NCBI GenBank assembly: GCA_022072055.1
Contig: JAJVIK010000005.1
Coordinates: 62,001 to 126,000, forward strand
Direction: 5' to 3'
DNA: 64,000 nt
Source of the DNA: a bacterium
GTDB taxonomy: Bacteria > Hinthialibacterota > Hinthialibacteria > OLB16
This document shows positions 7,117 through 52,967 of the stretch, piece after piece. Numbering within the stretch: the stretch's first letter is position 1; the number at the start of each line of letters is the position of its first letter. Under the pieces are notes generated by a model. The model did not search any database, was not told the DNA's origin, and worked only from the letters and a program-made list of their open reading frames with translations. Both the position numbers and the translations under genes were made by a program.

Positions 7117-7183
7117 TCGTTTCCCTCGAGTTCAGCCAAGACGGAGATGTTCAAACCATAAAACCCACGGTTGATAGCGGGAG

Positions 7184-7212
7184 ACTATACAACGCTTTGG
7201 GTTAAGAGTCAA
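7184..7212 (-). promoter_or_regulatory. Sigma-70-type promoter of the GH95-like gene
   Basis: On the minus strand TTGACT (7212-7207) is followed after exactly 17 bases by TATAGT (7189-7184). The -10 element lies 68 bases before the ATG at 7116. Both hexamers differ from consensus by one base. Confidence 0.7.
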
Positions 7213-7273
7213 AAGTTCATGGGAAGTATTAGTTTGCAGAGGTCAACCCTTTGGAATTGGGGCTGTTACAAAT

Positions 7274-7307
7274 GAAAAGGGGGCGGCAAGTTAACCTTGC
7301 CGCCCCC
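7274..7307 (-). terminator. Intrinsic terminator of the 995-residue secreted protein gene
   Basis: A perfect 12-bp stem (7279-7290 with 7296-7307, five-base loop) rich in G and C lies 31 bases after the stop codon. On the minus strand it is followed by TTTTCATTT. It insulates the downstream GH95-like gene, which has its own promoter. Confidence 0.9.
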
Positions 7308-7338
7308 GAAGAATCAGGCTAGAGCCGATCCTTGTCCC

Positions 7339-10326: not shown

Positions 10327-10677
10327 AACATTAACCTCCTTTAGGATTGGATTATTCCTCTCCGCAGCATTGCTGCACCCTTTCCACAACCCCGAGCGAA
10401 TCGGCACTAAACAACCTCCATGGTACGAAGCACAAGTTGAACGGATAGGAAAACAAAGACGTTTTGTCCGGTGTGAAGTATAGAAAGGGGAAAAATTCCC
10501 TGTCAAGCTCTTTTTTTCAGACGCAGCCACCGTAACGCGAGCCAACCCTCGCACGCATGTCCAGACAATCCTCCGCAACCCATGGGATATGAGTGGGATA
10601 CAACCCGGTATCACCCCTTTTCAAGCAAGGTATCACTGCCTCCCCAGAGCGTAATTAACGACTTGATCGGAATGGAG
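10327..10677. other. Intergenic region with long leader and promoter
   Basis: This 351-bp gap holds the roughly 145-base untranslated leader and promoter of the 995-residue protein gene. The remaining part lies directly after the stop codon of the upstream radical SAM gene. I saw no RNA gene, open frame with a ribosome site or clear riboswitch fold in it. Confidence 0.6.
10477..10506 (-). promoter_or_regulatory. Strong sigma-70-type promoter of the 995-residue protein gene
   Basis: On the minus strand a perfect TTGACA (10506-10501) is followed after 18 bases by TATACT (10482-10477), one mismatch from the -10 consensus. Transcription would start around 10470, leaving a leader of about 145 bases before the GTG at 10326. 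The spacer contains a GGGAATTTTTCCC inverted repeat, a possible operator. Confidence 0.75.
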
Positions 10678-11805
10678 TTAGAGAGAATTGACCGCAGCGG
10701 TCGGGAGACTCAGGTCAGCGGGGAAGGAGGTGGGCTTTTTGAGGCGGTCAATTTCAGTCGCGGAGCGCGTGGTGAGGCGCTTGGCCAGATATGCGAGTTC
10801 GTGGCCGGTGTCGTCCGTCAGAACCGCCTTGCAGTGGTCGCATCCACGCGCGCACTGATTGCGAAGAGCTTCGCCCCGAAACGCTTGATTGCTTTCGCCG
10901 TACCAGATATCCCGAAAGGGGGTTGTAAAGACATTTCCAAGCGTGAAACGGTCGCGCAAATTCAGGCATGGAAAGCAATGGCCATCCGGTATGAGGAACA
11001 TCCAGGAATCCTCGGCGGCGATGCAGCGACCGTTGTAGACCGGCTCCTCCAGCAGGCGGCCCTCCCAAGGAGTGATCGTGTCGGGAAGATCCTTGGGCAC
11101 CGAGACATGCACGCCGCGCGCCGCGGCCTGTTCGCGCAGGCTCTGAAGGAGCGCGTTCATGCGCGGCGGGTCGTAAGCGAGGTTGTGCGACTTCATCTCG
11201 GGGCGCTCGACGATCATGTGGTGATACGAGATCGAGGTCACCCCGAGGTCGCGGGCCAAGTCGATAAGGGGAAGGGCTTCGTGGCAATTGTCGGTCATCA
11301 GGGTGAAATTGAGCGAGACTTCGGGTTCGACGCGGCGGCGTGCGTTGCGCATCTCGACAAAGCGTCGGATGTTGCCGGTGACCATCTCCCAATCGGCCCC
11401 CACGCGGATGCGTTCGAAGGTCTCCTTGGTGGCGGCGTCGAGCGAGACCCCCAGATGGCTGAGCCCCTCATCCAGGAGCAAGGCGCTCATGGCCTCATCC
11501 AGATGGGTGGCGTTTGTCTGGATGCGGACATAAGGGACGCCCGCGCGCTTGGCGGCGCGGAGCGCCTCGGGAAAGATCGGAAGATAGAGCGGCTCGCCGG
11601 TGCACGAGAGGGACAGGCGCTCGATGTAGGGGAAGACCTCGCGCTCAAGGATTTCGAGCTGAGCGCGAGTCACCTTCATGGGGGGCGGAATGATGGCCTC
11701 GCGGAAACACTGGACACAGCGGATGTCACAGGTCGTGGAGAGGTCCATGTAAAGCCGGATGTGACGTTTCCTCCCGAACCAACCGTTCTTGATGGGTAGT
11801 GTCAT
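10678..11805 (-). CDS. Radical SAM protein with SPASM domain
   Basis: The radical SAM CX3CX2C cluster motif is CDIRCVQC (C26, C30, C33 from the chosen start), with the SAM-binding strand LSCTGEPL after it. The C-terminal part has a SPASM-type cysteine set: GRC near residue 267, then GHCFPCLNLRD, LGNVF, and CARGCDHC. SPASM enzymes use auxiliary Fe-S clusters to modify peptides, sugars or alcohols. No small precursor peptide gene is visible next to it, so a role in nucleoside/sugar or surface-component chemistry is as likely as peptide maturation. ATG at 11805 is preferred, with GGAG 7 bases upstream; the frame stays open to an ATG at 11883 without a good ribosome site. It is divergent from the next radical SAM gene. 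Confidence 0.85.
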   Translation of the reverse strand: MTLPIKNGWFGRKRHIRLYMDLSTTCDIRCVQCFREAIIPPPMKVTRAQLEILEREVFPYIERLSLSCTGEPLYLPIFPEALRAAKRAGVPYVRIQTNATHLDEAMSALLLDEGLSHLGVSLDAATKETFERIRVGADWEMVTGNIRRFVEMRNARRRVEPEVSLNFTLMTDNCHEALPLIDLARDLGVTSISYHHMIVERPEMKSHNLAYDPPRMNALLQSLREQAAARGVHVSVPKDLPDTITPWEGRLLEEPVYNGRCIAAEDSWMFLIPDGHCFPCLNLRDRFTLGNVFTTPFRDIWYGESNQAFRGEALRNQCARGCDHCKAVLTDDTGHELAYLAKRLTTRSATEIDRLKKPTSFPADLSLPTAAVNSL

Positions 11806-18701: not shown

Positions 18702-19370
18702 ATGACAAAACAAGGACGGGTTCACCGAAAGCCGAAGGAGGGGAGCGGGTTCACCCTGATCGAGCTCTTGATCGTGATCGCGATCATCCTGATCCTGATC
18801 GCGATCGCGCTGCCCAACTTCACCGAGGCGCAGCTCCGCGCTCAGCTCACACGGGTCAAGGCCGAGCTGCGCTCTCTCACAATCGCCCTGGAGTCTTACA
18901 ACATCGACTTCAAGCGCTATCCCCTGGATGACAGTGAGGTTCCCAGTCCGCTCCACCCCTTCGGGGGCGAGGATGTCTCCGGGGCCGATTGGTATTCCTT
19001 CTTGGTGCTCACCACTCCCCACAAATACATGGAGGCGGTTCCCCAGGATTACTTCCAGGACCGCAACGCTTCGGCGCTCGCGGAGGTGCCCTATCTGACC
19101 TACAACTACCACGAACAGAAATCGCTCCTCGATCCCCGCGGCACCCCCAGCGCGGGGAGAATCCTCAAGCGGTACAATGTGGATTGGGTGGTCTTTGGGA
19201 TCGGGCCGGACCGTAAGTGGCAGATCGAGACCGTGGCCAGCGACTTCCAGATCATTCAAGCGCTGGAACAAGGGAAATCCGGGGGCTCATTTTTCAGCTA
19301 CAACCCGACTAACGGGAGTAAATCGCTGGGGGATATCTTCCTTACGAACCGAAATCCGGTGTTTCGGTGA
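18702..19370 (+). CDS. Type II/IV pseudopilin-like protein
   Basis: The 222-residue protein has a type III signal sequence: a short basic leader (MTKQGRVHRKPKEGSG), prepilin peptidase site G/F and the N-methylated helix FTLIELLIVIAIILILIAIA, with Glu at mature position 5. The globular part starts with AELRSLTIALESYNIDFKRYP, the pattern of GspG-type pseudopilins. It ends with YNPTNGSKSLGDIFLTN, which recurs in the other two pseudopilins of the window. No secretion ATPase, platform protein or prepilin peptidase is nearby, so it is an orphan subunit. Divergently transcribed from the oligopeptidase gene. Confidence 0.88.
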   Translation: MTKQGRVHRKPKEGSGFTLIELLIVIAIILILIAIALPNFTEAQLRAQLTRVKAELRSLTIALESYNIDFKRYPLDDSEVPSPLHPFGGEDVSGADWYSFLVLTTPHKYMEAVPQDYFQDRNASALAEVPYLTYNYHEQKSLLDPRGTPSAGRILKRYNVDWVVFGIGPDRKWQIETVASDFQIIQALEQGKSGGSFFSYNPTNGSKSLGDIFLTNRNPVFR

Positions 19371-19521: not shown

Positions 19522-20214
19522 ATGTCGATTCGAGCCCTGAGAGGTTCCGGACCCGCGCGGGGGTTCACGTTGATCGAGCTCTTGATCGTGATCGCCATCA
19601 TCCTGATCCTGATCGCGATAGCCCTGCCGAATTTCCTGGAAGCCCAGATCCGCGCCAAGGTCACCAAGGCCAAGGGGGAGCTCCGAACGCTGCAGACCGC
19701 TCACGAGGCCTATTATACGACCTACAACAACACATACCCGTTCAACCACCGAAGCGCGGGGACTCCCGCGGCCTCTGATGGGGATTCCGGGATTACCACC
19801 ACGGACTGCGGGGGGCGGGATGGGGTGTTCAATCAGGCGCCTTACTATAGTTTTGAGTCAGTGGGGTATGTGATCACCACCCCGATCAAGTTTATCACCA
19901 GCGCGGAACTCCAGGATGCCTTTCAGTTACATGGCAACCCCAGCGCGGCAAACCGTCCCCACATCTATCGCTACTCCAGCACCAAGATCGCCCATTGTCG
20001 CGGGTTCGGGCACGGCATCGCCTACCGCTATGAACGTCACAACAACCTTCCGGGCTACCAGTCCCGCCCCACGCGTCTGAAGTATCCCAACCAGGGATAC
20101 ATGCTCTGGTCGATCGGTCCGGACACCTCGGATGGGTTTTGCCAGGAAAGTCCCGGCTATGCTCCCACGAACGGCACTTCCAGCCGTGGGGATATTTGTG
20201 TGTTCGCGCCCTAG
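19522..20214 (+). CDS. Type II/IV pseudopilin-like protein
   Basis: The 230-residue protein has the leader MSIRALRGSGPARG, the G/F cleavage site and a nearly identical hydrophobic helix to the previous gene (IELLIVIAIILILIAIALP, then NFLEAQIRAKV). The soluble domain contains KGELRTLQTAHEAYYTTYNNTYP and many aromatic and His residues. The C-terminus again has the motif YAPTNGTSSRGDI. ATG at 19522 is chosen because it has CAGGAG about 10 bases upstream; the longer frame starts without a ribosome site. It is followed 15 bases later by the GH5 gene, suggesting co-transcription. Confidence 0.88.
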   Translation: MSIRALRGSGPARGFTLIELLIVIAIILILIAIALPNFLEAQIRAKVTKAKGELRTLQTAHEAYYTTYNNTYPFNHRSAGTPAASDGDSGITTTDCGGRDGVFNQAPYYSFESVGYVITTPIKFITSAELQDAFQLHGNPSAANRPHIYRYSSTKIAHCRGFGHGIAYRYERHNNLPGYQSRPTRLKYPNQGYMLWSIGPDTSDGFCQESPGYAPTNGTSSRGDICVFAP

Positions 20215-39369: not shown

Positions 39370-42300
39370 ATGAGGCGCTTGATTTGCCTGATCTTGCCTG
39401 GAGTCCTTGTGTTCGGGTCGGCTTGCGCCTGGCCCGCCACCCCCGGTCTGCCGTTCACGGAGGATTTCTCGGCCACGAGTCTGCGTGACGCCACCCGCAC
39501 CACCGCGAACTGGGACACGGCCGCGGGGGAGCTGCTCGCGCCGCCGGCGAAGCGGCTGTACGGGGCGGCCTTTGGCTCGGTAACGCCGTTCTCTTTCAGC
39601 AGTGCCATGTCCACAACCGATTTGGCGACTGGAGACATGGATGGGGACGGTGATCTCGACTTGGTGGCCGTCAATAAGAACCAAGTCAACCAACTCTTCC
39701 TCAATAGCGGCACATCCAGTCCCTTCAGCGGAGTGACAGCCAAGGACATCACAACCGACGCGCTAGACACCGTTGGCGGAGATATTGGCGATGTGGACAA
39801 TGATGGAGACCTGGATTTCGTTGTCGGTGTCCTCAACGCTGGTAACCGCCTTTACTTGAATAACGGAACCTCCGACCCCTTTGCGGGAGCTGTGGGGATA
39901 GTGATTGATTCGGACAACCTGAAAACCTACGACGTCGCATTGGCCGATTTTGACAATGATGGGGATCTCGATCTGCTGGCGACGACTCTGAGCGACGCAG
40001 CGAGCATGCTCTACCTCAACGACGGGGTTGGAAATCCTTGGGACACCGCCACTCCGAAGGCCATTGGAACCGCGACGCAGAATGTCTTCACGCAAGAAGT
40101 GGTGGACCTGGACGGGGACGGTTATCTGGATATCGTCTTCCCCGCGGAGAACAGCAATAGCCGGGCATTTTTCAACAACGGAACTAGCGATCCCTTTAAC
40201 GGAGTCAGCGCCTTTGAATTCACGAAGCCGACCAACCGTGCACAAGGTGTCGCAGTCGGCGATTTGGATGGCGACGGCGATGTCGATGTCGTCTTCAATG
40301 AGGATGGCGTCTCCGCAGGCGAAGTCAACTACTTGTTTCTCAATAATGGGACTGCGACTCCATTCAATGGCGTCACCGCGAAACAGATCACGTCCGACGC
40401 GAACCGGGGGTTCCCAGCCCGAATCGCGGACCTGAATAACGACGGCGCCTTGGATGTAATTATCGGAAACGCAGGGGCTGGCTCGGGGGAGATCAATCGC
40501 ATCTACTTCAATAACGGGACCGCCGATCCCTATAGTGGCGTGTCGGGTATCAACCTGGGGACCGAAACGGATGTAACCCGCGCGCTTGTGGCGGGGGATT
40601 TTGACGGCGACGGGGACATCGACATCGTCGCGGGGAATAACGGCCAGGCCAACCGCCTCTATCTCAACCCCGCCAATGAGAACCCGTGGAATGGGGTGGG
40701 CGGGAGCGATGTGGGATCAGACACCTACTCCACCGTCCGGATTGCAGTTGCGGATATTAACGGAGATGGGAAGCTCGATGTCGTTGCTGGAAATGACAAT
40801 ATGGCCTCCAGTCACCGGAATCGCCTGTACTTGAACAATGGGACGGCCACTCCGTTCAACGGCGTCGTGGGAACCAATGTCGGCTCCGAATCACGGAGAG
40901 TAGCCGGAATTGGAATTGCCGACTTTAATGGAGATGGTCGCCTCGATATAGCGTTCGCAAATGGCGTGGCCGAGTCTCAAGTGAACCGCCTCTTCTTGAA
41001 TGACGGGGCCGGGGACCCTTTCGACATGGCCACTGGTGTCGATATCACTTCCGACACTCACCATTCGAGGGCCATAAAAGTTGGTGATATTGACAATGAT
41101 GGCGATATTGATGTCGTTATCGCAAACACGTCCGACAATAACCGTCTCTACAGGAACAGCGGCAATGGCCTCGCCTGGACAGGAACCAATATCGCCACGG
41201 ACCCGGGTACCACTTTGGATATTCTTATTGGCGATTTTAATGGCGATGGTTGGCCTGATGTCATTGCGGGAAATAGCGACGGCCCTGAAACGTTGTACCT
41301 TAACGACAAGACAGGTGACCCATTTGATACACTAGGAGGTGTCAACCTCCCCCTTCCCGGCGGGGGTGGGACCCATTCTTATCTGGCTGCCGGGGATGTG
41401 GACCGCGATGGTCACCTCGATGTAATCGCGGCCGACCCCAACGCGGGGCTAGAAGGATCAATTCTCTACTTAAACAACGGGACCTCTTCCCCCTTCACAG
41501 GGGTGACCCCCATTTCCATTCCCGACACATCCACAGGGCGTCCACTCATGCAACTCTGTGACGTGGATGGGGACGGCGATTTGGATTTGCTTTCCTATGA
41601 CTACGGCGAATCAGTCTGGGTTCACTTGAATAACGGGACGAGCAATCCATGGGAGGGTGTGAGTTCGATTAACATTGCCGGTTCCAATGTATCTCAGGGT
41701 AACAGTATCGTGTGCGCAGATGTCGACAACGATGGAGACCTCGACCTGGTCCAAGGTGTTGAAGGGGGAACCACCAAACTCTATCTCTCCACCGCCGCGG
41801 ACAACGGCGGGCTGCACCCGTGGAACGCAAATGGCTTCTATGGAACTCAACTCCCAGGCTTGGCGGCCACCCACGGTCTTGCGTTTGGCGATGTTGACGG
41901 TGACGGCGACATAGACTTGGTTGAAGGGGACCGAAGTGGAGGTCCGCCTCTGTATACATTGAACAATGGGACTTCCGATCCTTATCAGGGCCAAACCCCT
42001 ACTGCGATCGGATCGGATATGTATCGCACGACCGATGTCAGGCTCGCCGACATCGACAACGACGGAGACCTGGACCTACTCACTGCCAATGGAGGCGAAG
42101 CCGTCTTGTCTGGAATTGTGGCCCAGCCCAACCGGCTTTACCTTAATAACGGAACCAGTACGCCATGGTCTCCCCTCACCGCGCTCACTATAGGTACCAT
42201 TGACTATGCGACGCGCAAGATCGCGGTCGGCGACGTTGATGGCGACGGGGACCTCGACGTGGTTACGGCGGAACAGAGTTTGTCCCCGAATCACCTGTAC

Positions 42301-45300
42301 CTGAACGACGGTTCCTCCGCGCCATTTGTTGGTTTGGCCGCTGCCGACATCGGCGCGGCGACTGACAAATCAAACGATATTGCGCTCGCCGATTTCAACG
42401 AGGACGGCATCCTCGACGTGGCGGCAGTTCACGGGGTTGGGGGAACCGCCAAACCTTCCTATGTCTATCTTGGGAGCGCCTCGACGACGAACCCGTACTC
42501 CAGCTCGACGCCGATCCAGCTACCCAATGCCGACAGCTGGTCCGTGGAAGTGGGGGACGTCGACCGAGATGGCGATATCGATATCGTGGAGGGAATCCTG
42601 TCAACATTTGGACAGGTCAATCGAGTTCATATCAATGGCGGGACTGGAACCGTTTGGACTCAAGTCGATGTCGGTGTCGATGCGGTCAGGACCGACGGCT
42701 CCGCGGTCGGGGACCTTGACGGGGACGGGGACCTGGACCTATCCGCAATCCAAGAGCATTCACCAAACGATCTTCGCTTATACCTGAATGACGGCACCAC
42801 GGATCCCTGGAATGGTGTGGCGGGAATCCTTGTGGATCCATCATTCGGAAGTAATTCGACCAACAAAGGAGGAACCGTGGAGTTCGCGGATGTTGATGGA
42901 GATGGTGACCTCGATATCATAGCGGGCTTATACGAGAATGGCGGTGGGGCAGGAGACAATGGGCTTGCAAACCGCCTCTACCGGCGTTGTCCTCTTTGCA
43001 GGCCGTCCTCTTCCTTTGCCACCTCCCTCACCATCGACACCGAACCCGGCAACATCCCCGACGCGCTCCTAACAGTCACCGACACCACACCGGACCACAC
43101 CTCGATCCGCTACTACCTCTCCAACAACGGCGGCGCGCAGTGGTTCCAGGTGACACCGGGAGTGTCGTTTGTTTTCCCAACCACCGGCAGTGATTTGCGC
43201 TGGCGGGCGGAGCTCGCTTCCCTCTCTCCGGTCGTGTCGGCCTCCATCCAGAGCGTGATGATCACCGGTTCCGTCGCCCCGACCGAGACCCCGACCGCCA
43301 CGGCGACACAGACCGACACGCCGACGGTTACGGCAACCAGCACGAGCACTCCAACCGACACGTCCACTCCCTCGCCATCGAAGACTCCCGTCCCGCCAAC
43401 CGCGACGCCCACTTGGACCGGCACGGAAACCGCCACGCCAACCAACACGGTGACTCCGCTCTATGGGACGCCGGTTCAGATCAAGGCGCCATCCGAGGCC
43501 ACCAACGCGAACTTCGGCTATTCGGTGGCCGGGATCGGGGATGTCAACGGGGATGGCAAGGGGGACCTGATTGTCGGGGCGCCCGCGGCGGATGCTGATA
43601 GCCCAGCCCTTGCGGGGAAGGTCTATCTGGTGGATGGAGGGACCGCCGCGGTCCTGGGTGAATTCGCGGTCGCCTCCCCGGAAGTGGGCGGCCAGTTCGG
43701 ATACTCGGTCGGGAGCGTTCCGGACACAAGTGGAAACGGAACTTGGGACGTTGTGATCGGCGCCCGGCTGGGGGATGGCGGCTCCGCTCCAAGCGATCGG
43801 GGACGAGTGTTCCTTTTTGAAGGGTCCACTCGGAGCTTGATCCGGGAGCTCACCTCACTCGGCGCGGATGGGATGGGCTACTTCGGCGCGGCGGTCGCCG
43901 GGATGGGCAGCGTCAACGGGGACAGCTTCGGCGATATCCTTGTGGGAGCCTATCAAGAGGACATTACACAGAATAACAGTGGGAGAGCCTATGTTTTCAG
44001 CGGGACCGCGAATCAGGTGATCCATGACCGTCAACCTCAGGCGCCCGCCGCGGACGGGAATTTCGGGTGGGCGGTGGCATCGGTTCCCGACACAAACAAC
44101 GATGGCGCGCCCGATTTTGTGGTCGGGGCGATAAGAGACAATGGGAGTGTAACCGAGGAAGGGCAGGCCTACTTGTTCAGCGGTGCCACAGGAGCCCTCC
44201 TCCAAACCTTGGACAACCCGGATGGCGAGGTGGGGGGCCGTTTCGGATACGCCGTGGCGGGGGTCGAGGATGTCAATGGGGACGGCTGGGGGGATGTGGT
44301 GGTCGGGGCGCGTGACGAAGACCCCGGGACCAGTCCGGCCGCGGCGGGGCGTGTTCATGTCTTCAGCGGCGCGACCGGAACGCACATAAGGGCAATCGCC
44401 TCTCCCAATGAGGAGATGAACGGTTTCTTCGGTTCCGCCTTGGCGGGGATCCCCGATCTGGATGGGGATGGGTTCGGTGATATCCTTGCGGGCGCGTACC
44501 AGGAGGACCCGGGAGGAAGCCCGACCGAAGCGGGGCGGGTTTATGTCTTGAGCGGCGCGTCCGGCGCGGTGCTCCAAACCCTGGCGTCGCCTGAGGAAGG
44601 AGCCAATGGCTTCTTTGGATTCTCCGTGGCGGCGGTCCCGGACGCAAACAACGATGGGTACGCCGAAATCGCGGTGGGCGCGCGGTCGGAATACGCCGGT
44701 GGTGGCCCGGCGGGTTCCGGGCGTGTTTACCTCTTCTACTCTGTCCTTCCGCCCCTACCGACCGCAACCGCTTCTCAAACCCCAACGGGGACGCAGACAT
44801 CCACCTCTACCCAAACCCCGACTTCATCGGGCACCCACACCCGCACCGCGACCGGAACAAACACCCGCACGGCCACGCCGACAGAGACGAATCTCCCGAC
44901 TTCGTCTCCAACCGCCACCTCCACTCACACTTCCTTGCCAACCTCCACCGGCACGGCCACAAATACAGCAACCCCAACAAGCACGGGGACGAACACCGAG
45001 ACACCCTTGCCCACCGAAACACAAACGCCTCAGCCCACGGCCACCGCCACGAACACCGAGACCTCGCTTCCGACACACACCTCCACGCCAACCGCGAGTG
45101 TCACCCACACGCCTCTTCCTCCCACATCGACATCGACCAGAACCGCAACCGGCACAAACACGGTAACCCGCACGGCGACTCCGACCCGGACCGCCACCGG
45201 AACGAACACCCCCTCGGCCACGATCACAGAAACTCCCACCGCAACCCAGTTCGGCGCTCCCAGCTCGACCCCCACTCAAACCCCGACCGTGTCCGGGACC

Positions 45301-46536
45301 GCCACAGTGACTCCCACGGACACGATTTCGGAGACCCCCTCTCCGAGCGCTTCTGTAACTCAAACAGAAACCGCAAGCCCGACCACCACCGGAACGTTGA
45401 CACCGAGCCCAACCGCGACCGCCACGCCGACACCTTCCGCAACTCTCGATGGACCCACGCCGACGGCAACCGCCTCGCCCACGGCCACCGAGGTTCCACG
45501 CCTTGTGGATGTCATCCCGGACGACACCATCACCCTGGGGCCGGGGCTGGCCCGGTTCGCGTTTTCGTTCTCGGTGCCCATGAATCGGGAGGAAGCCCCC
45601 ACGGTCACCTATGGGCGGGTGTTCCCCTTCGCCCTGGGAAGCCTGTTTCCGGACCCGGGCTGGACCAATGATTTCACTTGGGTTGGGGTCACCGAACTTC
45701 CCGATTTCCTCACCGATGGCTTGTATACATTGCGTGTGCGCAACGCGGAGACCTTGGATGGCGCGACTGTTCCTGAGGATTCCAGCCATCAATTCCGCTT
45801 CCTCAAGCAGAACCCGAACGACCTCACCGAGGGACGTGTGACCGATGAGGCGGTCAACGCGCTCGGGATGGAGTGGGATCGCTCCGGGAACACGGATGTA
45901 TCCGGGCACATCATCGGCAGCGCGCCGCAAGCGAACGGACCTTACGATGTCGTGGCGGGAGTCGGATCCTCGCAGGATGCCTTTATCCATCTCGGCCTGA
46001 ACAGCGACACCGCTTACTTCTATCGCATATATGAGGTCTCCCTGAACAAGGGGAACGCCTCGACGGTTCGACAGCTCACCAACACCTTTGATGGCCGCAC
46101 CCTGGCGCTCTTGGCCAACGGTCGCGCCGAGGGGATCTCCTACAACAAGATGCGGATTTCGTGGGAGAGCGATGACAATCCGAGCACGGTCGGATTCCGG
46201 GTCCGTCGCGCCACGCACCGGAACGCACTCGGTGACTGCGGCGAGAATCCGGGGAGCATCATCGCGGAAGCCACTTCCGAGGTGACAGCGGCGACCGATG
46301 AGGGGCTTCATTCCAACACCGTGTACTTCTATGACATCTGTTTGTTGGACCAGGAAGGGAACACCTCGCGCTTGGAAAACCCATTTGTCGGCAGGACCCT
46401 CGGCATGGATCCCAATGGAGACGGCACGGTGGACGCTCAGGACTTGCTGTGGTTCCTTGACGCGGCGACCAAGGGTCAGGAAACGCAGGATATCCTGATC
46501 GAATTCTCGCTTCAGTGGGACACGTCGGTGGAATGA
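39370..46536 (+). CDS. Giant secreted VCBS/FG-GAP surface protein (2388 aa)
   Basis: A signal peptide (LICLILPGVLVFGSACAWP) opens the protein. Residues about 75-1195 are over twenty VCBS-type repeats of roughly 50 residues, each with a Ca2+-binding loop of the form D(x)D(x)DGD(x)D followed by NRLYLNNGT. A short beta-sandwich (about 1210-1300) and a Thr/Pro linker follow. Residues about 1375-1795 carry seven FG-GAP units (FGYSVAG, FGYSVGS, FGAAVAG, FGWAVAS, FGYAVAG, FGSALAG, FGFSVAA), the number for an integrin-alpha-like propeller. A 245-residue TPT-rich linker leads to the C-terminal module (2041-2388), shared with the 1229-residue protein and ending in an EF-hand/dockerin-like DPNGDGTVDAQDLLWFL. 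Likely an adhesin or polysaccharide-binding surface protein. Confidence 0.9.
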   Translation: MRRLICLILPGVLVFGSACAWPATPGLPFTEDFSATSLRDATRTTANWDTAAGELLAPPAKRLYGAAFGSVTPFSFSSAMSTTDLATGDMDGDGDLDLVAVNKNQVNQLFLNSGTSSPFSGVTAKDITTDALDTVGGDIGDVDNDGDLDFVVGVLNAGNRLYLNNGTSDPFAGAVGIVIDSDNLKTYDVALADFDNDGDLDLLATTLSDAASMLYLNDGVGNPWDTATPKAIGTATQNVFTQEVVDLDGDGYLDIVFPAENSNSRAFFNNGTSDPFNGVSAFEFTKPTNRAQGVAVGDLDGDGDVDVVFNEDGVSAGEVNYLFLNNGTATPFNGVTAKQITSDANRGFPARIADLNNDGALDVIIGNAGAGSGEINRIYFNNGTADPYSGVSGINLGTETDVTRALVAGDFDGDGDIDIVAGNNGQANRLYLNPANENPWNGVGGSDVGSDTYSTVRIAVADINGDGKLDVVAGNDNMASSHRNRLYLNNGTATPFNGVVGTNVGSESRRVAGIGIADFNGDGRLDIAFANGVAESQVNRLFLNDGAGDPFDMATGVDITSDTHHSRAIKVGDIDNDGDIDVVIANTSDNNRLYRNSGNGLAWTGTNIATDPGTTLDILIGDFNGDGWPDVIAGNSDGPETLYLNDKTGDPFDTLGGVNLPLPGGGGTHSYLAAGDVDRDGHLDVIAADPNAGLEGSILYLNNGTSSPFTGVTPISIPDTSTGRPLMQLCDVDGDGDLDLLSYDYGESVWVHLNNGTSNPWEGVSSINIAGSNVSQGNSIVCADVDNDGDLDLVQGVEGGTTKLYLSTAADNGGLHPWNANGFYGTQLPGLAATHGLAFGDVDGDGDIDLVEGDRSGGPPLYTLNNGTSDPYQGQTPTAIGSDMYRTTDVRLADIDNDGDLDLLTANGGEAVLSGIVAQPNRLYLNNGTSTPWSPLTALTIGTIDYATRKIAVGDVDGDGDLDVVTAEQSLSPNHLYLNDGSSAPFVGLAAADIGAATDKSNDIALADFNEDGILDVAAVHGVGGTAKPSYVYLGSASTTNPYSSSTPIQLPNADSWSVEVGDVDRDGDIDIVEGILSTFGQVNRVHINGGTGTVWTQVDVGVDAVRTDGSAVGDLDGDGDLDLSAIQEHSPNDLRLYLNDGTTDPWNGVAGILVDPSFGSNSTNKGGTVEFADVDGDGDLDIIAGLYENGGGAGDNGLANRLYRRCPLCRPSSSFATSLTIDTEPGNIPDALLTVTDTTPDHTSIRYYLSNNGGAQWFQVTPGVSFVFPTTGSDLRWRAELASLSPVVSASIQSVMITGSVAPTETPTATATQTDTPTVTATSTSTPTDTSTPSPSKTPVPPTATPTWTGTETATPTNTVTPLYGTPVQIKAPSEATNANFGYSVAGIGDVNGDGKGDLIVGAPAADADSPALAGKVYLVDGGTAAVLGEFAVASPEVGGQFGYSVGSVPDTSGNGTWDVVIGARLGDGGSAPSDRGRVFLFEGSTRSLIRELTSLGADGMGYFGAAVAGMGSVNGDSFGDILVGAYQEDITQNNSGRAYVFSGTANQVIHDRQPQAPAADGNFGWAVASVPDTNNDGAPDFVVGAIRDNGSVTEEGQAYLFSGATGALLQTLDNPDGEVGGRFGYAVAGVEDVNGDGWGDVVVGARDEDPGTSPAAAGRVHVFSGATGTHIRAIASPNEEMNGFFGSALAGIPDLDGDGFGDILAGAYQEDPGGSPTEAGRVYVLSGASGAVLQTLASPEEGANGFFGFSVAAVPDANNDGYAEIAVGARSEYAGGGPAGSGRVYLFYSVLPPLPTATASQTPTGTQTSTSTQTPTSSGTHTRTATGTNTRTATPTETNLPTSSPTATSTHTSLPTSTGTATNTATPTSTGTNTETPLPTETQTPQPTATATNTETSLPTHTSTPTASVTHTPLPPTSTSTRTATGTNTVTRTATPTRTATGTNTPSATITETPTATQFGAPSSTPTQTPTVSGTATVTPTDTISETPSPSASVTQTETASPTTTGTLTPSPTATATPTPSATLDGPTPTATASPTATEVPRLVDVIPDDTITLGPGLARFAFSFSVPMNREEAPTVTYGRVFPFALGSLFPDPGWTNDFTWVGVTELPDFLTDGLYTLRVRNAETLDGATVPEDSSHQFRFLKQNPNDLTEGRVTDEAVNALGMEWDRSGNTDVSGHIIGSAPQANGPYDVVAGVGSSQDAFIHLGLNSDTAYFYRIYEVSLNKGNASTVRQLTNTFDGRTLALLANGRAEGISYNKMRISWESDDNPSTVGFRVRRATHRNALGDCGENPGSIIAEATSEVTAATDEGLHSNTVYFYDICLLDQEGNTSRLENPFVGRTLGMDPNGDGTVDAQDLLWFLDAATKGQETQDILIEFSLQWDTSVE
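45793..45965 (+). repeat. Shared C-terminal module, copy 1 (DNA repeat)
   Basis: This 173-bp stretch inside the giant protein gene matches 51478-51650 at 159 positions without gaps (hand count). Thirteen of the 14 differences are synonymous; the one amino-acid change is Thr to Ala. Confidence 0.9.
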
Positions 46537-46566
46537 CGGCGGCCCCACGGAAACGCCGGAATCCAC

Positions 46567-46614
46567 GGAAGGATCGGAATGGATTGTAACCTTCCCGGGC
46601 GGTGATTCGGTAAT
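46567..46614. repeat. Dispersed 48-bp repeat, copy B
   Basis: Partner of the copy at 39154-39201, about 77 percent identical by hand count. Purine-rich GGAAGG and GGGGGAGAGAGG flank it. Confidence 0.6.
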
Positions 46615-46702
46615 AGGGGGAGAGAGGGGTCCGACCACGGGAGGCCAAGAGGCAAACCGAGAATCGAACGACACGCCGGGCAAAGGGTGTGCAAAACCGC
46701 GC

Positions 46703-46731
46703 TTGTCGTGCCGTCATCACTCTGTTACCTT
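46703..46731 (+). promoter_or_regulatory. Candidate promoter of the beta-helix / repeat-protein operon
   Basis: TTGTCG (46703-46708) and TACCTT (46726-46731), 17-base spacer, about 110 bases before the ATG at 46841. It has the same layout as the candidate at 39293-39321. Confidence 0.5.
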
Positions 46732-46840
46732 TATCTAACCTTGCTCCGCTTTGATCCGGCTCCGATGGCAAGGGGCGCGCGGGCTCGCGTTGGCGCCCGC
46801 CCCGACGCCGCGCAATTTGTGTGAACCAGGAGGGAAACCC

Positions 46841-48505
46841 ATGAGTACCAAGTCCGTGATCCTTTTGGGGATGCTGATCCTCCTGCAGGTCCCGGCTGCG
46901 GCCACGGAGTATTACGTGGATATCCAGAACGGGAGCAACCAGACCGGGGATGGAAACATCGGCAATCCCTGGCGCAACATCACCTACGCGCTGGCGCAGA
47001 TTTCCGGCACGGGGCACACGATCCATGTTGCCCCGGGGGTGTATGACAAGTCGCAGGACGCCGGGGGGTTATCGGAATCTTTCCCGATCCAGATGGAAAC
47101 GGGTGTTTCGATTGTGGGCGACCAGGGAGCCGCGGTCACTGTCCTGGACGCGCTGAACCAGAGTCCCAGGACGCGGGTCATTCAGGCGGTGAGCATCGCG
47201 GCGGGAACTGTCTTGCAGGGACTGACAATCAAGAATGGGCAGGCATCGGATAGCGGCGGTGGGATCTATATGAGTTCCTCGTCGATGACGGTTCAGGATT
47301 GTATTATTGAATCGAACGCGGCTTCCTCTTCTTTTTCTTCCACGTATGGGGGAGGGATATACATTAGCGGCGGGTTCAGCAACACACCACTGATTGATGG
47401 TTGTATCATCCGAAACAATTCCACAGTCACTTCTTCTTCAAATGGTATTGCATTTGGCGGGGGAGTGTTTGTCTCAGGTGCGGTGCCAACTATTACAGAC
47501 AATTCAATCATCGGAAACTCAGCAAGTCAGGCTGTATATTCTAATCCGACGTACGGTGGTGGAATTCATCTTTCTAGTTGCCCAGGGTCCTCCATCACGA
47601 GGAACATCATTGTAAGCAACAGCCTTTCCTCAACGGATTATGCTTATGGGGGAGGGTTATACTTGATTTCATCCAGTGGTTCTATCTCACGAAACCTCAT
47701 CAAAGCGAACACGTTAGGTTCGCAGGGGACTCGAGCCGGAGGAGGTATCTATATTTCCGGGAGTTACTCGGGGGCTCCAAGCATCATAAGAAATGAAATC
47801 CTCGGCAATGACCTGCAGGGCCTCTATATTGGGTCGTCGCAAGTCATGAACAATACAGTGGCCCGTAATGGTACCAACGGAGTTTACGTTATTGGATCAG
47901 CAAGTATCATCAACAACTCAATTGTAAACAACGGATCGCATGGCCTCTATGGCTCTAGTTCAGGGAATACAACCGTTCGGAACAATGTGATTGCGAGTAA
48001 CTCTGGCTACGCCATGTACGAGGCAGCAATTGGTTTCGATTTCACAGCCGACTACAATCTCCTTTACAGTAACCCCTCCGGACTGTGCTTCGACGAGGGA
48101 ACCACACCCATCGGAACACTCGCTCAACTCAACATCACCTCCGGTTACACCAACAATCTCGAGGGGAATCCGATCTTCGCGGACGAGGCCTCCGACAACT
48201 ACCGCCTCACCTCCACCTCCCCCGCCAAGGACGCCGGGTCCTCCACCAGCGCGCCGACCGATGACGCCGACGGCGAACCGCGCCCCAATGGGGCCGGATA
48301 TGACATCGGTGCGGATGAGTATTACGCCCCCCACGCCGCCGATACAAACACCAATTATGTGATCGAAAACTTCGAGATGCTCCGCTGGGTGGATGATTGG
48401 GCCAACAGCCTCATCACCCAAGGCCAACTGGATGAACTCAAGGCGATCTGGTCTTGCCTCAACGGATACAAATCCGATGGCTTTGGTGGATTCACCTGCC
48501 GCTGA
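46841..48505 (+). CDS. Secreted right-handed beta-helix protein
   Basis: The 554-residue protein has a signal peptide (SVILLGMLILLQVPAAATE) followed by a DUF1565-like start (YYVDIQNGSNQTGDGNIGNP, then WRNITYALAQ). It continues as a parallel beta-helix with NNS, GGG and GGIYIS rungs (GGGIYMSSSSMTVQDCIIE, GGIYISG, NNTVARNGTNGVYV). The end, FADEASDNYRLTSTSPAKDAG with GYDIGADEY, is the choice-of-anchor Q type terminal domain seen in surface proteins. The last 50 residues form a helical tail (MLRWVDDWANSL, LDELKAIW). Such helices bind or cleave polysaccharides, but no lyase catalytic residues can be assigned. ATG at 46841 has AGGAGGG upstream. The 1229-residue gene follows after 26 bases. Confidence 0.85.
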   Translation: MSTKSVILLGMLILLQVPAAATEYYVDIQNGSNQTGDGNIGNPWRNITYALAQISGTGHTIHVAPGVYDKSQDAGGLSESFPIQMETGVSIVGDQGAAVTVLDALNQSPRTRVIQAVSIAAGTVLQGLTIKNGQASDSGGGIYMSSSSMTVQDCIIESNAASSSFSSTYGGGIYISGGFSNTPLIDGCIIRNNSTVTSSSNGIAFGGGVFVSGAVPTITDNSIIGNSASQAVYSNPTYGGGIHLSSCPGSSITRNIIVSNSLSSTDYAYGGGLYLISSSGSISRNLIKANTLGSQGTRAGGGIYISGSYSGAPSIIRNEILGNDLQGLYIGSSQVMNNTVARNGTNGVYVIGSASIINNSIVNNGSHGLYGSSSGNTTVRNNVIASNSGYAMYEAAIGFDFTADYNLLYSNPSGLCFDEGTTPIGTLAQLNITSGYTNNLEGNPIFADEASDNYRLTSTSPAKDAGSSTSAPTDDADGEPRPNGAGYDIGADEYYAPHAADTNTNYVIENFEMLRWVDDWANSLITQGQLDELKAIWSCLNGYKSDGFGGFTCR

Positions 48506-48531
48506 GGTCGCGGAGCCGACAGGAGCGCAAG

Positions 48532-51500
48532 GTGAGAAACGACCGCGTTTCCCGTGGGACAGGCATCCTGCTTGTCGGGGGGTGGGAAAAGGACAGGCAA
48601 GATGGCTGTCCCCCCAGCTTGGGCGCGCTCCTGCTCCTCCTGTTCACTCTCCCCGCGTTCGCCGATATCACCGGAAGCCGGAGTCTCCCCGGAAGCTATG
48701 TGGGGGCCACGACGGCCCATGTGGAAATCGCGCTCACGATAACCGGCGCCACCCCGGTGTATGGAGCCGTGGTTGAAGAGACGATTCCATCGGGATGGAA
48801 CCTCGCATCGTCCTCGCCAACACAGGATAAGTTCTCATCCTCAACAAACAAGATCGCCTGGCTGATTACAGATGCAAGTGGACTGGACTCGCAAACACTC
48901 GAATATGATGTACTTGTTCCGTTGGGACAGACCGGAAGCAGCGTGTTCTCTGGCCAAATCCATTACTTACTGGAGGATGTGGAAACTTCAGTCACCATGG
49001 GTGGTAACACAAGTCTGCCTCAGTCCACGCCAACGACGACGCCGACACAGACCATTACCGGGACACCGACACAAACCGGGACCCCCACAAACACGGCGAC
49101 GGTGACCCCCACACTCAATCCACTTGCGCTTTCCGGCAGCCGCGACTTGCCCTTGGATTATTCTCCCGGGCTTCCGGTGGAGGTGAGTGTGTTCTTGGAC
49201 ACCGACGCATCGGTTCCCCTTAAGGGTGTGATCCTTGAGGAGACCTTGCCCGCCGGCTGGAGTGTCACGGCCTCCACGCCCGCTGTGGACGCCTTCGATT
49301 CCGATAGCGGCAAGGCGCGGTGGCTGCTGGTCGATATGACCACGGTGGCTGACCAAACGGTCGATTACCGCCTGCTTCCTCCGATTACTGACACCGGGAA
49401 CAAGACCTTTAGTGGATCACAAAGCATCCGCCTGTCGAATACAGGATATATCATCACGATGGGAGGAGAGACAAACCTTCCGAAAGCCCTGCCAACTTCG
49501 ACGCCGACCGTAACACCGACTTTCACGCGCACGTTGACACACACGCAGACCGCTACACCCACCAGGACCCCCACACTGGACCCCAATGCACTTATCGGAA
49601 CGCGGAATCTCCCCGCGAATTACCTGCCCGGCGAACCGTTGGAGGTTCAGGTAACCCTCAACTTGAACGAAGCGTCACCCGCCAAGGGCCTGATCCTCCA
49701 GGAGACGGTCCCCTCCGGTTGGCTGGTTCTCGATTCCACGCCCGGAGTGGATGCGTTCAATTCATCGAGCAGCCAAGCCCGATGGCTTCTGATGGACATA
49801 TCGGGGCTCCCCGACAGCGTGGTCGAATACCGTGTCCTGTCCCCGATCACCGCGTCCGGCCAGCAGGCATTCAGCGGAACACTGCATGTCCGCGCGGCGA
49901 ACAGCGACTACTCCCTGGCGGTGGGAGGGGAGAGCCTTCTCCCCCAGGGACCGCCATCCTTGACCCCCACGCGAACCATCACAAACACCCCCACGATCTC
50001 CCCCACCCGAACGCGGACCCCCACTCGATCCCCAACGATTGCCCCGGCTCGAGTTGTCGGGATTCGGGAGTTGCCGCTCCAATACGCCCCGGGGCAGACT
50101 GTCAGCGGCCGGATCCGATTGGAGATCGGCCCCGAATCCCCGCCCAAGGGGTTGATTGTATCGGATCAGCTTCCCTCGGGCTGGCTGCTGCTCTCCTCCA
50201 ATCCCACGGCCAATGCCTTCAATTCGACCTCCGGCGAGGCTCGCTGGTTGCTCGCCAGCATCGCGGGGCTTGGGGATGGGTTCGTCGACTTCGAGGCGCT
50301 GGTGCCCATCACGGAGAGTGGAGCGAAATCGTTTCAGGGAACCTTGAGCGCGCGACTCGAATCGTCGGAGTATGTCATCCCCGTGATCGGCCACAATCAG
50401 GTCGGGCAGACCCCCCGCGCCACGGACACCCCCTCACGGACTTCGACCTCCACTCGGACCCCCACGGATAGCGCCACGTTTACGCCCACGACAACCTCGA
50501 TCCCAACTCATTCTTTCACTCCGACCGGGACAAGCTCCTTTACCCCCATTCCAATTGACACCGATACACCGAGCGCGACCCCGACAGGGACCGCCACGCT
50601 CACGAAGACACCGACGCCAACCCATTCGGGCACGCAGACACCAACCGCAACCAGTTCACCTACAATCACGGAAACCGCCACCGGCACGGACACCCAGACG
50701 CCGACACAAACGGTCACGCATACCGTGACGGAATCACACACACCGTCCTCAACGATTACCGAAACGCCGACGAACACCCAAATCGGAGCGCCGACCTCCA
50801 CGCCAACCCCAACCACGACCGACACGTTGCCACCCACCGCAAGCGCCTCCCCCACGGCTTCCGGAACGGACACGCCTCCCCTGAACACAGCCACGGTGAC
50901 ACGCACAGGGACCGCCACGCCCTCTCGATCCTTCACTCTCACAAGGACCCCCACCGGGTCGATGACTCCCTCTCCGACCATCACCCAGACCCCCACCGCG
51001 ACCCAGTTCGGCGCGCCCAGCTCAACCCCCACCGAGACCGCGACCATTTCCGGAACGGCGACAATCACCGTAACCCCAACGGATTCACGGACCCCGACTC
51101 CAAGCGCAACACGGACCCTGACCCCAAGCCCATCCACAAGCGCCACGGCCACACCCTCCGCCACGGTGGTCGGTATCCCGCTCCTTGTGGATGTTATCCC
51201 GGATGAGAGCATCACCATCGGGGTCGGAGACGCCATCTTCTCGTTCACCTTTTCTCACCCGATGGACCGTGACCGGGATCCATCCGTGACATTCGGCACT
51301 CCGCCGCTGTATAACATCGGCCTGCGGTTCACTCCCGCGCCGGGATGGGTGGACGATTTTACCTGGTACGGCGGCGTGCAACTTCAGAGCTTTGTCAGCG
51401 ACGGCTTGTACACGCTGCGGGTCACTGACGCGCGGACCGCCACGGGGGCGTCCATCCTTCCGGACACCAACCACAACTTCCGTTTCCTCAAGCAGAACCC

Positions 51501-52221
51501 CAACGACCTCACCGAGGGACGAGTGACCGACGAGGCGGTCAACGCGCTCGGGATGGAGTGGGATCGATCGGGGAACGCGGATGTATCCGGGCACATCATC
51601 GGGAGCGCCCCGCAAGCAAACGGACCTTATGATGTCGTCGCGGGGGTTGGCCCCTCGGCGGATGCTTTTGTCCACCTCGGACTGACCAGCGACACGGCTT
51701 ACTTCTATCGCATCTATGAGGTCTCCCTGAACAAGGGGAACGGAAACGGTGTCCGGCAGCTCACCAACACCTTTGATGGCCGCACGCTGGCGCGACTGGC
51801 CAACGGGCGAGCGGAGGCGATTTCGCAGACCCGGATGCGGATCACCTGGGAGAGCGATGACGACCCGAGCACGCTCGGCTTCCTGGTCCGTCGCGCCACG
51901 CACCGAGACGCGCTCGGAGACTGCGGCGAAAACCCGGGAACCATCATCGGAGAGGTCCCCGCCTCCACGAACGAGGCCATCGACATGGGACTCCACGCCG
52001 ACAGCGTTTACTATTACGACCTCTGCCTGCTGGATGACCAAGGGAACAGCATGCGGTTGGAAAACACCTTCGCCGGGCGGACGATGAGCCTCGATCCGAA
52101 TGGGGATGGGATGGTGAACGTGAGAGACCTGCTTTGGATTCTGAATTCAGCCAGGGATGATGAGAATTCTCTGGAGGTGCTCATCGAGTTCTCGCTGGGG
52201 TGGGACGGTCAAATTCAATAG
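48532..52221 (+). CDS. Large secreted repeat protein with TPT linkers (1229 aa)
   Basis: GTG at 48532 is chosen because AGGAG lies 6 bases upstream. An odd N-terminus precedes a hydrophobic signal core (LGALLLLLFTLPAFA). Four copies of a 115-120-residue domain follow (about residues 45-160, 200-320, 355-470 and 508-623). Each has the pattern R(x)LP(x)xY(x)PG, then P(x)KGLIL(x)ET(x)PSGW, then ARWLL, and F(S/Q)GTL. TPT-rich linkers separate them, and a 255-residue one leads to a C-terminal module (882-1229) shared with the 2388-residue protein. The end carries DPNGDGMVNVRDLLWIL, EF-hand/dockerin-like. The repeats resemble unnamed adhesin-type domains of planctomycete-like secretomes. A palindromic repeat lies within the first 30 codons. 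Confidence 0.87.
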   Translation: MRNDRVSRGTGILLVGGWEKDRQDGCPPSLGALLLLLFTLPAFADITGSRSLPGSYVGATTAHVEIALTITGATPVYGAVVEETIPSGWNLASSSPTQDKFSSSTNKIAWLITDASGLDSQTLEYDVLVPLGQTGSSVFSGQIHYLLEDVETSVTMGGNTSLPQSTPTTTPTQTITGTPTQTGTPTNTATVTPTLNPLALSGSRDLPLDYSPGLPVEVSVFLDTDASVPLKGVILEETLPAGWSVTASTPAVDAFDSDSGKARWLLVDMTTVADQTVDYRLLPPITDTGNKTFSGSQSIRLSNTGYIITMGGETNLPKALPTSTPTVTPTFTRTLTHTQTATPTRTPTLDPNALIGTRNLPANYLPGEPLEVQVTLNLNEASPAKGLILQETVPSGWLVLDSTPGVDAFNSSSSQARWLLMDISGLPDSVVEYRVLSPITASGQQAFSGTLHVRAANSDYSLAVGGESLLPQGPPSLTPTRTITNTPTISPTRTRTPTRSPTIAPARVVGIRELPLQYAPGQTVSGRIRLEIGPESPPKGLIVSDQLPSGWLLLSSNPTANAFNSTSGEARWLLASIAGLGDGFVDFEALVPITESGAKSFQGTLSARLESSEYVIPVIGHNQVGQTPRATDTPSRTSTSTRTPTDSATFTPTTTSIPTHSFTPTGTSSFTPIPIDTDTPSATPTGTATLTKTPTPTHSGTQTPTATSSPTITETATGTDTQTPTQTVTHTVTESHTPSSTITETPTNTQIGAPTSTPTPTTTDTLPPTASASPTASGTDTPPLNTATVTRTGTATPSRSFTLTRTPTGSMTPSPTITQTPTATQFGAPSSTPTETATISGTATITVTPTDSRTPTPSATRTLTPSPSTSATATPSATVVGIPLLVDVIPDESITIGVGDAIFSFTFSHPMDRDRDPSVTFGTPPLYNIGLRFTPAPGWVDDFTWYGGVQLQSFVSDGLYTLRVTDARTATGASILPDTNHNFRFLKQNPNDLTEGRVTDEAVNALGMEWDRSGNADVSGHIIGSAPQANGPYDVVAGVGPSADAFVHLGLTSDTAYFYRIYEVSLNKGNGNGVRQLTNTFDGRTLARLANGRAEAISQTRMRITWESDDDPSTLGFLVRRATHRDALGDCGENPGTIIGEVPASTNEAIDMGLHADSVYYYDLCLLDDQGNSMRLENTFAGRTMSLDPNGDGMVNVRDLLWILNSARDDENSLEVLIEFSLGWDGQIQ
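48556..48612. repeat. Interspersed palindromic repeat in signal-peptide coding region
   Basis: Imperfect 21-base arms (48556-48576 with 48592-48612, 18 of 21 pairing) flank a 15-base G-rich loop. The arms begin GGGACAGGCATCCTG, a sequence type known as a REP-like interspersed element in several environmental genomes, where its reverse-strand translation is a hallmark (GTAILPVLF and DKQDACPTG). Confidence 0.75.
51478..51650 (+). repeat. Shared C-terminal module, copy 2 (DNA repeat)
   Basis: Partner of 45793-45965; see there for identity. It encodes residues about 983-1040 of the 1229-residue protein. Confidence 0.9.
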
Positions 52222-52304
52222 GACATGTCATTGACGGCGCCATGCCAGGGGTGGTTGCGCGTCATGCACGGTCTCCAGTGGTTTCACGGGAAGGAGAATC
52301 CGAC

Positions 52305-52967
52305 ATGATCAGGCTTGCCCGTCGCCACGCGCGTGAGGGATTCACCCTGCTCGAACTGCTCATCGTTGTCGCCATCATCCTGATCCTGATCGCCATCGCG
52401 CTACCAAACTTCATCGAGGCGCGGATTCGCGCGAAAGTGGCTCGGGCTGAGGCGGACATGCGCACTTTGGCCGTGGCGGTGGAATCCTATTACCAAGACC
52501 GAAGAATCTACCCGTACCCGAGTGTCGCCTCCCTGGACGCCACGCACTTGACGGATGGACTCAGGCTGCTTACCACGCCGATCTCGTACCTTACCGATCT
52601 CCCGACCGACCCCTTTTCACTGCCGGTTGAGGGATCGGTTGCGCTCCACTTCAGAGGCCCGAATTACAAACTTGTATCGACCACCCCGCTTCCAATAGGA
52701 TTGCCCCGAACGAACAATGTCGATGCTTATTTCCTCTACAGCTACGGTCCCAATCTTGATGATGAATCCACATACGGTGGTCAGTTCTGGCCGTTCAGTC
52801 AGTTGGACAACCCCTGTGCGTATTTGAACTCGACCAATCTGAAATCTTACTCCCCCACAAACGGGACCAAATCGGCCGGGGATATTCTCAGGTTCGGCGG
52901 GGAGTATCGAGCCGGGAATTGGTGCCTGGATGGCATCATCATCCGTGGGCGAAAACCAGGTGGGTGA
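52305..52967 (+). CDS. Type II/IV pseudopilin-like protein
   Basis: The 220-residue protein has the leader MIRLARRHAREG, site G/F and helix FTLLELLIVVAIILILIAIA, then LPNFIEARIRAKVARAEADM. The globular part has RTLAVAVESYYQDRRIYPYP. A C-terminal motif YSPTNGTKSAGDI repeats that of the two other pseudopilins, followed by an extra tail with Cys. ATG at 52305 is chosen, with AAGGAG about 10 bases upstream; the longer frame from 52200 overlaps the previous gene. Located after the surface-protein operon. Confidence 0.88.
   Translation: MIRLARRHAREGFTLLELLIVVAIILILIAIALPNFIEARIRAKVARAEADMRTLAVAVESYYQDRRIYPYPSVASLDATHLTDGLRLLTTPISYLTDLPTDPFSLPVEGSVALHFRGPNYKLVSTTPLPIGLPRTNNVDAYFLYSYGPNLDDESTYGGQFWPFSQLDNPCAYLNSTNLKSYSPTNGTKSAGDILRFGGEYRAGNWCLDGIIIRGRKPGG

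Follow-up and report, generated by a model that had tools for sequence, protein, structure and literature searches.

DNA exchange as the probable source of a low-divergence tract in a mobile C-terminal module shared by two large proteins of a Hinthialibacteria genome

Why do two large genes whose products have unrelated N-terminal domains carry, in their C-terminal coding regions, a block of DNA that is almost the same in both? The pair lies in a stretch of 64,000 nucleotides (the window, C18:62001-126000) of a 5.86 Mb genome in 32 contigs (G000), and all of the window features placed below are on the forward strand. The first gene (39370..46536) is an ORF of 2388 aa for a probable secreted protein, with a signal-like N-terminal segment indicating that the product is probably exported, many FG-GAP repeats (Pfam FG-GAP_3, E 1.8e-111), Thr/Pro-rich linkers and the C-terminal module. 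The second large protein gene (48454..52221) is a 1255-aa ORF read from a TTG codon, with its true start uncertain, and encodes four similar NEW3/DUF11-type repeats (NPCBM_assoc, E 1.6e-7, over the cut-off; DUF11, E 3.9e-4, below it), Thr/Pro linkers and again the C-terminal module. The intervening gene (46751..48505) encodes a right-handed beta-helix protein (Pfam Beta_helix, E 1.3e-18; choice_anch_Q); in place of the module it has its own short EF-loop tail. Elsewhere in the window, three stretches (18747-18871, 19561-19685 and 52338-52432) are 76-83% alike in DNA; the last of them encodes the N-terminal region of a prepilin-like product (gene 52200-52967, with matches of GspG/PilA type), and all three may therefore be pseudopilin N-termini.

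An earlier note on this DNA had described the domains flanking the block as unrelated. This is correct for the N-terminal domains, an FG-GAP propeller in one protein and NPCBM_assoc/DUF11 repeats in the other, but not for the remainder. Module copy 1 (45496..46533, 346 aa; aligned with copy 2 and four further copies) and module copy 2 (51178..52218, 347 aa) are homologous end to end and ~68% identical, and the Thr/Pro linkers are similar too: a repeat search matched 45178..45350 to 50935-51107 at 72% over 173 nt, and blastn matched 45188-45306 to 50945-51063 at 78%. The module consists, in order, of a beta-like domain, two fibronectin type III domains (FN3-1 and FN3-2) and an EF-loop tail. The first domain (45496..45810 in copy 1) belongs to no Pfam family over the cut-off, the best match among the module copies being MG2 at E 0.0064, below the cut-off. 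FN3-1 (45811..46107) was assigned from the match of the module profile to fibronectin/titin FN3 chains, and FN3-2 (46108..46398) from a Pfam fn3 match (PF00041, E 8.5e-6, residues 210-290) of 26.3 bits versus a cut-off of 25; copy 2 falls just below it with 22.7 bits, and an fn3 match is present in all six module copies. AlphaFold2 models of the two window copies had a pLDDT of 31, too poor for use.

The reported block occupies 45793..45965 in copy 1 and 51478..51650 in copy 2, and a recount gave exactly the 14 differences, 13 of them synonymous, that had been claimed; the sole non-synonymous one is at position 45892, in a Thr/Ala codon. The 173-bp block does not stand alone but forms the front of a tract of low divergence ~420 bp long, delimited by a segment scan on silent sites with permutation at 45799..46218 in copy 1 and 51484..51903 in copy 2. 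Inside the tract 29/119 silent codons are changed, as against 64/105 outside it (permutation p ~3e-4, with none of 3000 shuffles reaching the observed value); for this pair, a cruder permutation test based on runs of identity gave only p 0.024. Blockwise dS was 2.4 in the first 100 module codons, upstream of the tract, then 0.45, 0.48 and 0.50 in blocks of 58, 37 and 48 codons inside it (about 0.47), and 1.5 followed by saturation downstream. The tract starts near the boundary of the first domain and FN3-1 and ends inside FN3-2, its edges being approximate because the tract is old. Since silent divergence is much lower in the tract than in its surroundings, DNA exchange between the copies is the best explanation.

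The earlier note had offered strong protein-level constraint or recent gene conversion as causes, and we computed dN/dS along the two copies. The ratio was ~0.02 in the first 58 tract codons (one non-synonymous versus 14 synonymous changes) and ~0.2-0.3 in the remainder of the tract, a contrast (Fisher p 0.005) that was picked after seeing the data. In most copy pairs, moreover, the block protein is more conserved than the preceding domain. Extra purifying selection is thus likely to have acted on the start of FN3-1 in the window pair, and both observations are in line with the proposal that the 58 residues are essential and that no DNA was exchanged. However, silent sites are conserved within the same limits, and also in 85 further codons where the protein changes, and therefore protein constraint alone is not enough. 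The other copies argue in the same direction: their block proteins are only 40-78% identical between pairs (22-60% of residues differing), with L005/L006, a C1 pair described below, as the exception, and their silent divergence is ordinary. Over alignment columns 100-205, silent differences numbered 21/90 for the window pair and 47/79 and 46/77 for the two window copies versus the C1 copy L003, so that there is no general codon-level constraint in this region. An explanation by constraint alone, with silent divergence low within the tract and normal in other copies, was consequently dropped as very improbable. What stands of the original pair of causes is the exchange, with its sharp silent-site limits absent from other copies and its parallel on C1, together with a partial role for constraint; "recent" does not hold for the window pair, in which a dS of ~0.47 points to an exchange that is not very recent. 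Trees of the six copies were too weakly resolved to reveal a topology shift for the window pair, and AU tests did not reject alternative topologies in the first two blocks.

A search of the genome for more copies of the module found at least seven, so that the window pair is not the only one. Six are clear and full-length: two in the window, three on C1 (408.7-415.7 kb) and one on C6. A divergent seventh full-length copy is on C11 (E 1e-45), and partial relatives were found at C6:35781 and C18:140976. Among 13 other genomes of the class, clear module relatives occurred only in G002, of the same family, and therefore the module looks lineage-limited. The partial relative at C6:35781-36383 (L028) belongs to one frame of 1857 codons in which a subtilase-like N-terminus is joined to beta-helix-like parts and to an incomplete module that has a linker and an EF-type tail; the one at C18:140976-141242 (L030), near the contig end, is a module-related FN3 accompanied by WD40-type repeats and caspase-like stretches (names in both cases by sequence reading).

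The C1 cluster consists of three neighbouring genes carrying the copies L003, L005 and L006, which share blocks of 94-99% identity with abrupt edges, preceded by N-terminal domains that are unrelated. L005 and L006 have 1035 bp in common at 98.8%, with every difference in the last codons: there were no differences over the first ~319 aligned codons and an abrupt divergence in the last 20-25. For L003, the block in common with these two is confined to its final 439-455 bp (96% and 94%), from the FN3-2 boundary onwards, and its FN3-1 has only ~43% protein identity to theirs. Exchange in the C1 cluster is recent. The same copies were considered under a different account, in which the whole module was recently duplicated between genes and then diverged unevenly with no later exchange. 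The full-length homology of modules and linkers agrees with it, and the three C1 copies do look as if modules had recently been copied in whole or in part; yet it predicts uniform silent divergence, and in the window pair dS shifts at the tract edges by a factor of three to five or more, so we regard duplication without exchange as improbable. A repeat of ~110 bp, 88.6% identical, was also observed near the C1 modules, on the reverse complement of L026 (G000:C1:400001-420000; 2683-2792/3230-3343).

The N-terminal parts joined to the six copies are diverse, comprising an FG-GAP propeller, NEW3/DUF11 repeats, a further FG-GAP/propeller, a beta-helix and two without a Pfam match. The beta-helix case bears on the mobility of the module. 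BLASTP aligned the intervening window protein (46751-48505) with the module-bearing beta-helix protein of C1 at 37% over 527 positions, up to the residues GADEY; past that point the C1 gene continues with a linker and the module, and the window gene with its own short tail. The occurrence of a homologous beta-helix N-terminus with the module in one gene and without it in the other speaks directly for gain or loss of the module.

We therefore consider it probable that DNA exchange homogenised ~420 bp of a mobile module, which would serve as a shared display or attachment unit. According to this model, the two genes carry one and the same mobile C-terminal module after N-terminal domains that differ and are joined to it by Thr/Pro linkers, and the copies would have diverged first and then swapped DNA, by gene conversion or other homologous recombination; the C1 genes show this process at a later stage. 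The Ig/FN3-like domains may form a stalk, with the two-helix EF-loop tail as the attachment or sorting part, and recombination would keep the copies alike and allow N-terminal domain swaps at the linkers. An anchoring or display role of the module is a reasonable and plausible proposal.

The earlier note had also taken the module, which ends in an EF-hand/dockerin-like motif, as a possible sorting or anchoring signal. The motif itself is real. The copy 1 tail has an EF-hand-like loop, DPNGDGTVDAQD (46408..46443), recognized from the sequence with weak EF-hand_1 and dockerin_GC matches, and copy 2 has the corresponding loop DPNGDGMVNVRD (52093..52128), recognized from the sequence and the tail alignment. 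The invariant stretch, in contrast, is FN3 sequence; the EF loop is ~450 bp past the 173-bp block, outside the tract, and the EF-loop tail is among the most diverged parts of the module. Thus the EF motif has to be considered apart from the invariant block, with which the first reading had joined it, and the suggested sorting or anchoring role, plausible as it is, has no link to the invariant stretch.

The resemblance of the tail to a dockerin is only partial. In copy 1 the DPNGDGTVDAQD loop is followed by 'LLWFLDAA' and then by a terminal 'ILIEFSLQW' segment without a loop, and the sequence pattern suggests that the tail segments form two helices. The loop matched EF-hand_1 at E 0.15, below the cut-off, and dockerin_GC at E 0.056 (13.8 bits versus a cut-off of 29). 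No module copy passed the cut-off for Dockerin_1 (PF00404), for which the best value was E 0.05 with a match in three of the six copies, and a second Ca-binding F-hand repeat was not found in the module tail. Two full-length homologues, the C11 copy and G002:C515, lack the Ca loop and keep the L..L..W ending, and therefore Ca binding cannot be general. A profile of the module tails matched EF-hand (calmodulin-type) and dockerin chains about equally, and a combined tail profile matched cellulosomal dockerins best (2y3n, E 8e-10).

Tails of this kind are widespread in the genome. A profile built from the module and other tails hit 54 places in G000 at E<=1e-3 and 92 at E<=0.1, these counts being profile hits; terminal position was examined for the best 30 of the 54, of which 27 lie within 70 aa of the stop codon and 20 follow a Thr/Pro/Ser-rich linker. 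Pfam Dockerin_1 itself has 15 places in G000. Potential partners are also present. Cohesin (PF00963) exceeded the Pfam cut-off at two places on C5 and, with neighbours, at C6:283345; a 416-aa protein scored 34.7 bits versus a cut-off of 24.1. A cohesin-like profile gave two clusters, C5:311-317 kb and C6:211-217 kb, with about ten places between them, five of the ten having built the profile and one of these five being the C-terminal part of a zf-HC2 (anti-sigma-type zinc finger) protein. The nearest solved structures of the cohesin-like domains are cellulosomal cohesins, matched weakly (E 0.004), and tails of the kind described above also terminate several of the cohesin-like proteins. The C5 cluster (L054, C5:306001-322000; 6133-11398, minus strand) contains cohesin-like proteins with dockerin-like tails, the zf-HC2 protein and a protein bearing a dockerin that falls narrowly short of the Dockerin_1 cut-off. 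To the second cluster belongs a frame of 5570 codons (C6:214280-230989; L098, L100) with beta-helix-like, propeller-like, Thr/Pro and cohesin-like parts and a loop-less tail.

These findings bear on whether the tail is a working dockerin that binds cohesin-bearing scaffolds encoded at C5:311-317 kb and C6:211-217 kb in a non-cellulosomal surface assembly. The cohesin matches over the cut-off and the two clusters, the Dockerin_1 places, the combined profile and a comparable cluster in another family (G004:C835), where cohesin-like domains again occur with tails, would all fit such a function. The tail has, however, one Ca loop rather than two, every module copy fails Dockerin_1, and the module tails on their own match calmodulin-type EF hands equally well. 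Furthermore, tail and cohesin-like counts across 14 genomes were weakly and not significantly correlated (Spearman 0.40, p 0.16), and in G001 15 tails were found without any cohesin match. We judge a working dockerin of this kind to be rather unlikely. A broader version, in which more than 50 single-loop or loop-less dockerin-like tails plug into a few cohesin-like proteins and recombination spreads the tail-bearing module, appears unlikely as well; in such a large docking system, one of the partners would apparently be an anti-sigma factor whose C-terminal domain is cohesin-like.

Alternatively, the tail may act at the C-terminus as a signal for secretion or sorting that an export machine reads, in the manner of the C-terminal domain of T9SS substrates, rather than as a cohesin binder. 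Its terminal position in the great majority of the best 30 tails, the many different N-terminal domains and the two-helix L..L..W ending kept where the Ca loop is lost would be expected of such a signal. Against this, no sortase (PF04203) was found in G000 by a search that was positive in three control genomes. The modules had no Pfam/NCBIfam match to a Por_Secre_tail or CHU_C type domain, and SprA (PF14349/SprA_N) gave no signal in G000, nor in any control genome. An export signal thus seems possible, if somewhat doubtful, and as far as the sequences allow a judgement, we give about equal weight to a tail that docks to cohesin-like proteins and one that is read by an export system. Sortase anchoring was dropped with the failure to find a sortase in G000, and the search for a cohesin-like or sortase-like partner proposed in the earlier note accordingly yielded cohesin-like candidates and no sortase. 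With these candidates and at least seven module copies, the situation that the note had named as refuting its reading, two copies and no partner, was not the one observed.

That gene conversion occurs in families of modular surface proteins is well established. For Porphyromonas gingivalis surface proteins, intragenomic gene conversion together with domain shuffling is reported (PMC5266723); as in those families, homologous segments appear to have been swapped between genes whose partner domains differ, whereas here it is a C-terminal FN3-containing module beside low-complexity linkers that is homogenised, and no antigenic role is indicated. A literature search for dockerin together with gene conversion found nothing relevant. 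The tail resembles the type I dockerin (PF00404) of the cellulosome, which pairs with cohesin (PF00963), in its EF-hand-type loop followed by a helix, its C-terminal position and its Pro/Thr-rich linkers, and cohesin-like domains occur in the same genome as the tails, as in cellulosome genomes. It differs in the single Ca loop and the failure against Dockerin_1, and the attached domains are not cellulases but propellers, beta-helices and Ig-like repeats. Cohesin/dockerin sets outside cellulosomes are known as well, one example being the 'planctosome', a hypothetical non-cellulosomal cohesin/dockerin assembly of freshwater Planctomycetes (PMC6461901), which likewise combines cohesin and dockerin modules with large multidomain secreted proteins without cellulose degradation, although the attached domains differ and both assemblies are hypothetical. 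The LPXTG/sortase and T9SS tails are similar in that one C-terminal element recurs on many secreted proteins that are otherwise unrelated; unlike in LPXTG/sortase anchoring, there is here no sortase, and an LPXTG motif with a hydrophobic-basic tail is absent from the sequence.

The locus also carries a caution: a block of DNA can be nearly invariant without marking a functional motif that is frozen. For this lineage, a single genome presents several stages of module homogenisation, from a dS of ~0.47 in the window to near zero on C1, and a family of tails spread over the genome for which cohesin-like proteins are candidate partners, which makes the putative docking directly testable by binding assays.
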